Assembly (NCBI GenBank): GCA_030425045.1
Contig: JAUHVL010000002.1
Span: 124,001 to 188,000, forward strand
Reading direction: 5' to 3'
Length of the DNA: 64,000 bases
DNA from: a bacterium
Lineage (GTDB): Bacteria > Bdellovibrionota > Bacteriovoracia > Bacteriovoracales > Bacteriovoracaceae
Made by a program: the position numbers and the translations under genes. This document shows, piece after piece, positions 49,640 through 52,108 of the stretch; position 1 is the stretch's first letter, and every line of letters begins with the position of its first letter. The notes beneath the pieces were generated by a model. It was not told the origin of the DNA. It did no database searches and saw only the letters and a program-made list of their open reading frames with translations.

Positions 49640-50902
49640 CTATTTGACTTTAGGCAACTCATTCCAGCCAGTAACATAACGTTGAGACTTTAAAGTTTGG
49701 CGCATTTTCCATGCTTTATTATTCACCCCGCAGGCAAGTGATTTAATCGTATGTGGCCCTTCTCTTCTATTAATATCGTCTATCACCTTCATCAAAGCTT
49801 CCGATTGAACTTGATCAGTCTCTTCAAAAAGAGATAACTGAGTCTCCTTTTGGTCTTGAAATGAAGAAATTCTCACCAAGGCCTTTTTGTATTCAAATCC
49901 TTGGCGGTAAAGTTTATCGATAATTTCCCAAGAGTGTTTAATAATTCTTCTGGTATCAGAACTCCCCGCTAACATCGTATAAGAATCGACAGCATAATAC
50001 TGCTCGACATCTTTAAAGGGGTTCGTTCTTACCCAAACTTCGACTTTACGACATACCGACTTTTGTTCTCGTAGTTTTTCACAAGCCGTACTAGCGTAAT
50101 TCGCCACCGACTCAAGTAAAGATTTCTTATCAAAGACGGGGGCCCCAAATGTTCGGCTAGAAATAATCTCTTTCTTTTTTTCAATTTCTAGTGTGAGATC
50201 AAAACATAAAATTTCTCTCAACTCGTCTTGAGTCTGCCTTCCAACTTTAGTAAATGTTTTTTGAATCAAAGAATTATTTTTATAATCACGAAACTGCTTT
50301 GCTGTTTTTATATTTATCATATGAAGTTTCTTTGTACTTTGCCGGCCAATTCCCCAAATATTATCGACACTCGTTTTTTCCAAGGCCCACTCTCTATTGT
50401 TTTTCTCTAAGCAAGAGAAAACTCCATGAAACTGCTCATTTTTTTTTGCTATATGATTCGCAATTTTTGCCAAAGTTTTTGTTCGTGCGATACCAATACT
50501 CACAGGTATTCCAATATGCCGATCAATCACATATTTAATATGGCGACAGTACTGCTCTACATTTTTCACTCCCGTTAAATCTAAAAAGGCTTCGTCTACA
50601 GAGTAAATTTCAACTTCGGGAGCAAACTGAGAGAGTGTAAACATCACGCGATCTGAAATATTGGTATAGAGTGAAAAGTTTGCAGAAAAAACCGCTACAT
50701 TATTTTTCCTGCAAAGGTCTTTCACTTTAAAATAAGGTTCTCCCATTTTTACACCGAGGGCCTTGAGTTCATTCGTTCTCGATACAAAACAGCCATCGTT
50801 ATTTGAAAGAACACCCACGGGACGCTCATTTAGATCTGGCCGAAAGAGCCTTTCACACGAGCAGTAAAAACTATTGCAATCGACCAACGCAATAACTTTC
50901 AC
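49640..50902 (-). CDS. umuC: Error-prone Y-family DNA polymerase UmuC
   Basis: The GTG start at 50902 shares its G with the umuD stop (TAGTG) and puts LVDCNSFYCSCERLF at the N-terminus, the catalytic palm motif. YSVDEAFLDLTG carries the second acidic pair, and SIGIARTKTLAKIANHIAKK is the family block. The 420-aa length equals E. coli UmuC. It forms Pol V with processed UmuD and copies past damaged bases in the SOS response. Candidate operator repeats lie upstream of umuD. Confidence 0.96.
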   Translation of the reverse strand: MKVIALVDCNSFYCSCERLFRPDLNERPVGVLSNNDGCFVSRTNELKALGVKMGEPYFKVKDLCRKNNVAVFSANFSLYTNISDRVMFTLSQFAPEVEIYSVDEAFLDLTGVKNVEQYCRHIKYVIDRHIGIPVSIGIARTKTLAKIANHIAKKNEQFHGVFSCLEKNNREWALEKTSVDNIWGIGRQSTKKLHMINIKTAKQFRDYKNNSLIQKTFTKVGRQTQDELREILCFDLTLEIEKKKEIISSRTFGAPVFDKKSLLESVANYASTACEKLREQKSVCRKVEVWVRTNPFKDVEQYYAVDSYTMLAGSSDTRRIIKHSWEIIDKLYRQGFEYKKALVRISSFQDQKETQLSLFEETDQVQSEALMKVIDDINRREGPHTIKSLACGVNNKAWKMRQTLKSQRYVTGWNELPKVK

Positions 50903-51300
50903 TAAGAGACATCTCCACACTTGGCTATCACCACTCCCCAAAGTGATGTTTCAAAAGACTCGCGAACAATAATATCTTTAAAGCGATTATTATCTGACTT
51001 CAAAAGCAACCCTTCTCTCGTTTTAAAGACACGCTTACACAGCAACTCACCGTTATAAGTCACGACACAAACTCGCCCATGAAATTGATCAATAGAGCGA
51101 TCGACAACCAGATACTCTCCGGGAAAAATCGTTGGGATCATCGAATCCCCTACTGCTTGAAAGAAAAATGTGGATGTCTTATTTTTAATAAAACGCTCAT
51201 CGAGGCTTTGGTATTCTTCTAAAAAATCTTCCGAGACCCCAAAGAGGCCACAAGATGCCTGATGAATAAAGTTATCTCTTGGAACTTCTCTTATTTTCAT
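50902..51300 (-). CDS. umuD: UmuD-type S24 self-cleaving peptidase
   Basis: The 132-aa protein shows the Cys-Gly cleavage site in QASCGLFG (Cys17-Gly18), the nucleophile Ser53 in GDSMIPTIFPGEY and the general-base Lys89 in GELLCKRVF. RecA-stimulated self-cleavage activates it as a Pol V subunit. It is the first gene of the umuDC operon. Its start faces the SRAP gene across 79 bases. Confidence 0.95.
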   Translation of the reverse strand: MKIREVPRDNFIHQASCGLFGVSEDFLEEYQSLDERFIKNKTSTFFFQAVGDSMIPTIFPGEYLVVDRSIDQFHGRVCVVTYNGELLCKRVFKTREGLLLKSDNNRFKDIIVRESFETSLWGVVIAKCGDVS

Positions 51301-51310
51301 GATAGTATTT

Positions 51311-51347
51311 TATACTTACGCATAACTTACGCAATACAATCTGCGTA
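51311..51347. promoter_or_regulatory. Direct-repeat operator candidate between umuD and the SRAP gene
   Basis: ACTTACGCA occurs twice (51314-51322 and 51325-51333), 11 bp apart, one helical turn. TGCGTA (51342-51347) adds an inverted half-site. On the minus strand the repeats run into AAGTATAAAAT, a -10-like box for umuD. The position suits a damage-response regulator, but the motif is not a textbook LexA box. Confidence 0.5.
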
Positions 51348-51379
51348 GGCCTAGTAGTTTTAATTATTTAGGAGGATTT

Positions 51380-52108
51380 ATCTGCTTCTCAGTCCAAGTT
51401 GATGTCGATATTAAAAAACTCGCCAGACGCTTTAATGCCGAAGCGAAGACTTCTTCTTACCAATCATTTATGGCCCAAAGAGAGCTAGAGAAATCAATTC
51501 CAGTCGATGAATTAAAACAAGAGTTCGGTCTCAAAAGAAAACCTAGCTCATCTCTTTTTAAAGCAATCGACGAAGAAAAAAGAATCTATCCCGGATACTT
51601 CACCAATGTCATTCGTATGGAAAATGGAAAACGAATCATCGAGCCCATGAGATACCGAGTGCGCCCCAACGGTTCAAAGGAAGAAATCCCCTCCAAGTTC
51701 AATGTTTTCAACGCAAGAATCGACGCCCTTGAGAAAAGAAAAACATGGTCACCTCTTTTTATGAGAAACCATGGCATCTTTGTTTTTTCTAAATTCTTCG
51801 AATGGGTAGAAAAAGATGGAAAAAAGCAGCTCATTAATTTTTATCCGCGTAATAAAGAAATGATGTGGGCCCCCTGTCTTTGGGATAGCTGGCAATCAAA
51901 AAACGGAAAGTTTTCCTTTAAATCCTTTGCCATCATTACCAACGAACCTGCTCCCGAAGTCGAAAGCATGGGTCATGATCGTTGCCCAATTTTTCTAGAT
52001 GAACAATACTTTGATGATTGGCTCTCTCCAGAAAAAGAAAAAATTGGCGAAATCTATGAAATCTTAAATCAAACGGAAATGGTTACATATCAGTATAGCT
52101 GGGTCTAA
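51380..52108 (+). CDS. SRAP (HMCES/YedK) family abasic-site protein with an apparent ATC start codon
   Basis: The frame encodes CFSVQVDVDIKKLARRF directly after an ATC at 51380, which follows AGGAGG (51370-51375) by four bases. SRAP proteins need Cys at position 2, exposed by Met removal, to bond covalently to abasic DNA sites. No ATG, GTG or TTG exists in frame upstream, and the first ATG (51470) would remove Cys2 and 30 residues. NAR (111-113), FFEW (Glu141) and GHDRCP (His199) complete the active site. Divergent from umuDC, it fits an SOS role. ATC as start is inference; a point mutation or read error of ATG is the alternative. Confidence 0.85.
   Translation: MCFSVQVDVDIKKLARRFNAEAKTSSYQSFMAQRELEKSIPVDELKQEFGLKRKPSSSLFKAIDEEKRIYPGYFTNVIRMENGKRIIEPMRYRVRPNGSKEEIPSKFNVFNARIDALEKRKTWSPLFMRNHGIFVFSKFFEWVEKDGKKQLINFYPRNKEMMWAPCLWDSWQSKNGKFSFKSFAIITNEPAPEVESMGHDRCPIFLDEQYFDDWLSPEKEKIGEIYEILNQTEMVTYQYSWV

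Follow-up and report, generated by a model that had tools for sequence, protein, structure and literature searches.

An apparent ATC/ATT start codon on a putatively LexA-controlled SRAP gene in the Bacteriovoracaceae

The SRAP locus and its putative operator

The stretch of DNA analysed here, called the window throughout, comprises 64,000 nucleotides from a member of the Bacteriovoracaceae. It carries a gene of the SRAP (HMCES/YedK) type and a umuD-like gene that diverge from a common putative operator, with a umuC-like polymerase gene lying beyond umuD (Table 1). In addition to its Peptidase_S24 match, the umuD-like gene scores 88 bits against a UmuD-type model, which is below the cut-off of that model, and the energy of its Shine-Dalgarno (SD) pairing is 0.1 kcal/mol. 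The start of the umuC-like gene, read by eye, is probably a GTG that overlaps the umuD stop (TAGTG). On the minus strand, a TAAAAT lies just 5' of umuD without an SD (window 51295-51320), and the umuD mRNA may be leaderless, unlike that of the divergent SRAP gene with its strong SD. A sigma-70 consensus promoter scan returned no SRAP promoter, and Rfam gave zero matches within the window.

Table 1. Coordinates of the features discussed; positions are those of the window unless a locus is named
Feature	Position	Strand	Basis
umuC-like Y-family polymerase	49640..50904	-	IMS 132 bits; UmuC model 391 bits, below cut-off 431
umuD-like gene, divergent from SRAP, ATG start, no SD	50902..51300	-	Peptidase_S24 78.6 bits
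TATACT, likely SRAP promoter -10, in contact with the operator	51311..51316	+	by eye
Perfect direct repeat CTTACGCA-TAA-CTTACGCA, putative LexA operator common to SRAP and umuD	51315..51333	.	pattern match
TGCGTAGG, inverted copy of the operator half-site	51342..51349	.	RNA fold of 51322-51420
Shine-Dalgarno AGGAGG, 4 nt 5' of the ATC	51370..51375	+	sequence; anti-SD duplex -10.2 kcal/mol
ATC, putative start codon	51380..51382	+	sequence; ATC/ATT before the equivalent Cys in 10 other genomes
SRAP (HMCES/YedK-type) gene, 242 codons	51380..52108	+	PF02586, fold match, conserved active site Cys2/Asn111/Glu141/His199
Operator copies (SRAP/umuD, recA, lexA and uvrA-like sites)	window 51315-51333; L066 1525-1554; L067 1281-1299; L068 1338-1356

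The SRAP product matches Pfam PF02586 with 101.6 bits against a cut-off of 27.1, and it is the single match to this family in its own genome. An AlphaFold2 model made from an alignment of relatives (pLDDT 95.9) was compared with the PDB, where BT_1218, HMCES and YedK were each matched with a probability of 1.00; a sequence profile was also run. Cys2, which the first-pass annotation had taken as the crosslinking nucleophile, is invariant in 50 of 50 relatives, as are Asn111 and Glu141, and His199 is present in 49 of the 50, with one gap. The protein thus shares with YedK and HMCES the Pfam family, the fold and the Cys2-Asn-Glu-His active site, and differs from them in its ATC start and in an identity of only 15-22% to the structurally solved members. 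Relatives on phages amount to one weak match, and those on plasmids are distant, at about 30-34%. In YedK and HMCES, the removal of Met1 exposes the N-terminal Cys, which is required for the crosslink (PMC9436759). By analogy, the SRAP of the window would need initiation exactly one codon 5' of the Cys. As part of the overall explanation set out below, the gene is probably functional and its product a putative abasic-site crosslinker.

The putative operator between SRAP and umuD reads CTTACGCATAACTTACGCA, which has the form TTACGCA-N4-TTACGCA with an 11-bp period. Allowing up to three mismatches, the pattern has one match in the window, compared with 0.20 expected in shuffled windows. In the own genome there are no mismatches at SRAP/umuD, none at recA, where three half-sites are present, one at lexA and two at a uvrA-like gene, whose identity as UvrA was judged by eye from the translation. 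A reversed control pattern found three sites in this genome against six for the operator pattern, so weight can be given to the best sites alone, and the weaker ones are unsure. The repeat is read as the putative LexA operator of this lineage, and because the same operator precedes recA, lexA and the uvrA-like gene, SRAP is probably LexA-controlled. It resembles the LexA operators of other groups in standing before lexA, recA and umuDC, and LexA of Alphaproteobacteria likewise uses direct repeats (GTTC-N7-GTTC; PMC8565304). In contrast, the operator of Bdellovibrio is palindromic, TTAC-N3-GTAA (PMC8565304). The second half-site and TGCGTAGG (51326-51349) could form a hairpin of eight pairs in the SRAP leader, according to the RNA fold. 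A further copy with two mismatches occurs at about 31306 of contig C91 (L069); further TTACGC and TACGCA fragments lie close to it, and no repair gene is obvious next to it.

The start of the SRAP frame in the window and in relatives

The observation that drew attention to this gene, an ATC at 51380 placed four bases past AGGAGG and followed at once by TGC, agrees with the sequence, in which the spacer ATTT occupies 51376-51379 and the Cys2 codon begins at 51383. The frame opens past a TAA at 51323-51325, runs through 18 codons up to the ATC and then remains intact for 242 codons, ending with the stop at 52106-52108. The absence of ATG, GTG and TTG upstream, first claimed for the SRAP frame, holds in all three frames from the operator to the Cys (51310-51382), where only ATA, ATC, CTG and ATT are found; a start in another frame upstream was thereby ruled out. 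The first canonical start in the SRAP frame, ATG 51470, is codon 31, and its use would remove residues 1-30 including Cys2, as had been pointed out. A scan of the 64-kb window covered 66 stop-to-stop frames with a length of 110 codons or more. Of these, SRAP alone combines an ATH or CTG codon behind a strong SD with a first canonical start that comes late or is absent.

The comparison with relatives covered 129 genomes of the family Bacteriovoracaceae, and an order-level search gives the same 129. A SRAP match is present in 53 of them. Immediately 5' of the Cys codon, the window and L011, L020, L023, L034 and L045 have ATC, L012, L015, L016 and L021 have ATT, L018 alone has GTG, and the remaining family SRAPs in which this codon is readable have ATG. 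With one gene from another family of the wider phylum (L101), the ten family genes bring to 11 the genomes that keep a start outside ATG/GTG/TTG, though most others have ATG. Besides the window, ATC/ATT recurs at the same position in at least 10 other genomes. In L015 and L016, a stop stands directly 5' of the ATT and is followed by an ATT-ATT pair, so that no canonical start is possible there. A distant SRAP from a different subgroup, L156, likewise carries an ATC in front of the Cys, but a GTG lies four codons 5' of it, so this case is ambiguous. On this comparative reading, the SRAP gene very probably does start at ATC.

The SRAP orthologues with an ATT start are under purifying selection. 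The pair L015/L016 has a dN of 0.107 and a dS of 1.51 (dN/dS 0.07), and two other ATH pairs have dN/dS values of 0.15-0.17, their dS being close to 1.8 or higher. Synonymous sites are near saturation, yet positions 1 and 2 of the start codon stay A and T, and position 3 is only T or C. Moreover, SD duplexes are stronger at ATH starts, with a median of -7.4 kcal/mol compared with -3.8 kcal/mol at ATG starts (Mann-Whitney p = 1e-4, a value that is optimistic because the rows are related). The first-pass annotation had left two branches open, a genuine start at ATC by which expression is held low and an ancestral ATG mutated so that the gene is silenced. The former is upheld by the recurrence in at least 10 other genomes, the stronger SDs and the intact active site, and the latter is not supported, given the dN/dS of 0.07 among ATT-start orthologues. 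The ATC/ATT start looks like a conserved brake on SRAP translation, not an error or a dead gene, and low expression through the ATC is likely.

The start codon also appears to go with the arrangement of the genes. ATH was scored in 10 of 18 umuD-divergent SRAPs and in 2 of 81 others (Fisher p = 1.6e-7); one divergent gene with ATG (L038) had been misclassified by the search pattern, and the corrected counts are 10/19 and 2/80. As eight of the 19 umuD-divergent SRAPs start with ATG and one with GTG, the arrangement does not require the weak codon. L045 has an ATC start with neither umuD nor the operator alongside. L017, a tree neighbour of L015/L016, and L004, the sister to the window, have lost the arrangement and start with ATG. 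On the tree, seven changes of start-codon class are needed, at least five of them on well-supported branches. Independent contrasts and pairs between start codon and operator or arrangement are neutral or point the expected way; they are too few to be significant, which makes the association of the ATH start with the arrangement suggestive.

IF3 and the proposed gating of SRAP

Very few well-characterised bacterial starts lie outside ATG/GTG/TTG besides that of infC (PMC5472188), the gene of initiation factor IF3. In the Bacteriovoracaceae, infC has no ATG start and appears to begin with ATT, ATC or ATA (loci L070-L099; ATA in the own genome, L098), as assigned from the SD and N-terminal alignment, so initiation at AUH is evidently possible in these bacteria. 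The ARAGORN tRNA loci, counted without three weaker matches, contain three CAT tRNAs, of which L178 has an initiator-type C1:A72 end by eye. A special initiator tRNA was considered and rejected, since the same set of loci holds no initiator with a non-CAU anticodon.

IF3 has been found to reject weak pairing at the third base, as in AUU/CAU (PMC10158994), to repress the GTC start of sigR in Streptomyces as well as the AUU of infC (PMC5472188), and to inhibit leaderless mRNAs in E. coli (PMC9031893). Because IF3 disfavours third-base mismatches, initiation at AUC would be inefficient. The SRAP gene is like infC in having AUU/AUC behind an SD, in a family whose own infC starts at ATT/ATC/ATA. 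Unlike infC, it is a DNA-repair gene and not that of IF3 itself, so that a feedback loop is not implied, and many relatives use ATG. SRAP resembles Streptomyces sigR in that both are stress-response genes whose non-canonical starts would hold down output in the uninduced state; the codon there is GTC instead of ATC/ATT, the link between SRAP and IF3 is a proposed one, and SRAP transcription appears to be LexA-controlled. Control of the SRAP start by IF3 is a reasonable supposition, slightly more likely than not.

The explanation that best fits the whole, and that we regard as probable, is an SOS-type SRAP gene with a genuine ATC start, gated by LexA and IF3, whose product loses its Met. LexA would block a promoter whose likely -10 touches the operator, and DNA damage would lead to a SRAP mRNA with a short leader. 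The strong SD would then set the 30S subunit over the AUC, where, as the comparative evidence suggests, the ordinary fMet-tRNA (CAU) would initiate despite the third-base mismatch, and IF3, by analogy with infC and sigR, would discriminate against the AUC/AUU pairing and limit the yield. Finally, methionine aminopeptidase would remove the Met, as is known for this protein family, and expose the Cys nucleophile for abasic sites. With LexA gating transcription and AUC/AUU together with IF3 gating translation, it is proposed that little SRAP would be made without damage.

The most serious competitor, which is nevertheless unlikely, accepts ATC/ATT as the true start and regards it as merely weak, with a fixed low level of SRAP, compensation by the strong SD and no regulatory role of IF3. 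Such a trade-off between SD and start codon is indeed a general trend among GUG and UUG starts as well (PMC5622118), and several relatives with the umuD-divergent arrangement use ATG. However, SRAP starts here favour ATH over GTG/TTG by 11 to 1, whereas a survey of start switches from 61,358 ancestral AUG starts counted 476 AUG-to-GUG/UUG and 1 AUG-to-AUU (PMC5622118). With the ratio so reversed, the choice of codon is not explained by simple weakness; the ATH excess, which comes from few independent events, is as expected if sensitivity to IF3 was selected.

Building on the dual gating by LexA and IF3, it could be speculated that AUU/AUC constitutes a second, translational SOS checkpoint that couples abasic-site crosslinking to the IF3-ribosome balance. 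This extension is tentative, and we would not favour it at present. Since umuD looks leaderless and IF3 inhibits leaderless mRNAs, a shortage of IF3 would raise the output of both arms of the locus at once. The AUU/AUC start recurs on a DNA-repair gene and gives way to ATG in relatives in which that gene has left its SOS-type promoter, and this offers a natural comparative system in which to ask whether IF3 discrimination controls genes beyond infC.

Other readings of the SRAP 5' end

Translation might instead begin upstream, for example at the in-frame CTG 51341, 13 codons 5' of the ATC, with the extension being cleaved to expose the Cys. Some relatives do have long open frames upstream of the start, and in L101, whose ATT lies behind AAAGGAG, an ATG stands in frame nine codons further 5'. 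The CTG, however, has no SD, in contrast to the AGGAGG at the ATC, and the frame is closed directly upstream in L015/L016 and three codons upstream in L034, which makes such a start very improbable.

Silencing of SRAP by a one-base mutation of an ancestral ATG is still harder to credit. The sister L004 has ATG, so the codon of the window may derive by one change; against this, ATC/ATT is found in 10 other genomes, the ATT genes have the low dN/dS given above, and the frame of the window is complete and retains every active-site residue. No more credible is an error of sequencing or assembly at 51380-51382. The base in the window rests on one assembly, but ten other genomes have the same codon class in the equivalent position, with a strong SD alongside, and this recurrence, together with the stops in L015/L016, makes an error at that single base unlikely. 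A start at ATG 51470, the first canonical one in the frame and the choice of a gene caller, is the least probable of all, because its product would lack the invariant Cys2 together with the initial strand and helix of the confidently modelled fold, and the strong SD stands at the ATC. Gene callers will thus truncate SRAP and delete its catalytic Cys.

As a separate observation, genome G009 contains SRAP copies in pieces with internal stops (L048 and L054), which shows that decay of the gene does occur in some lineages.
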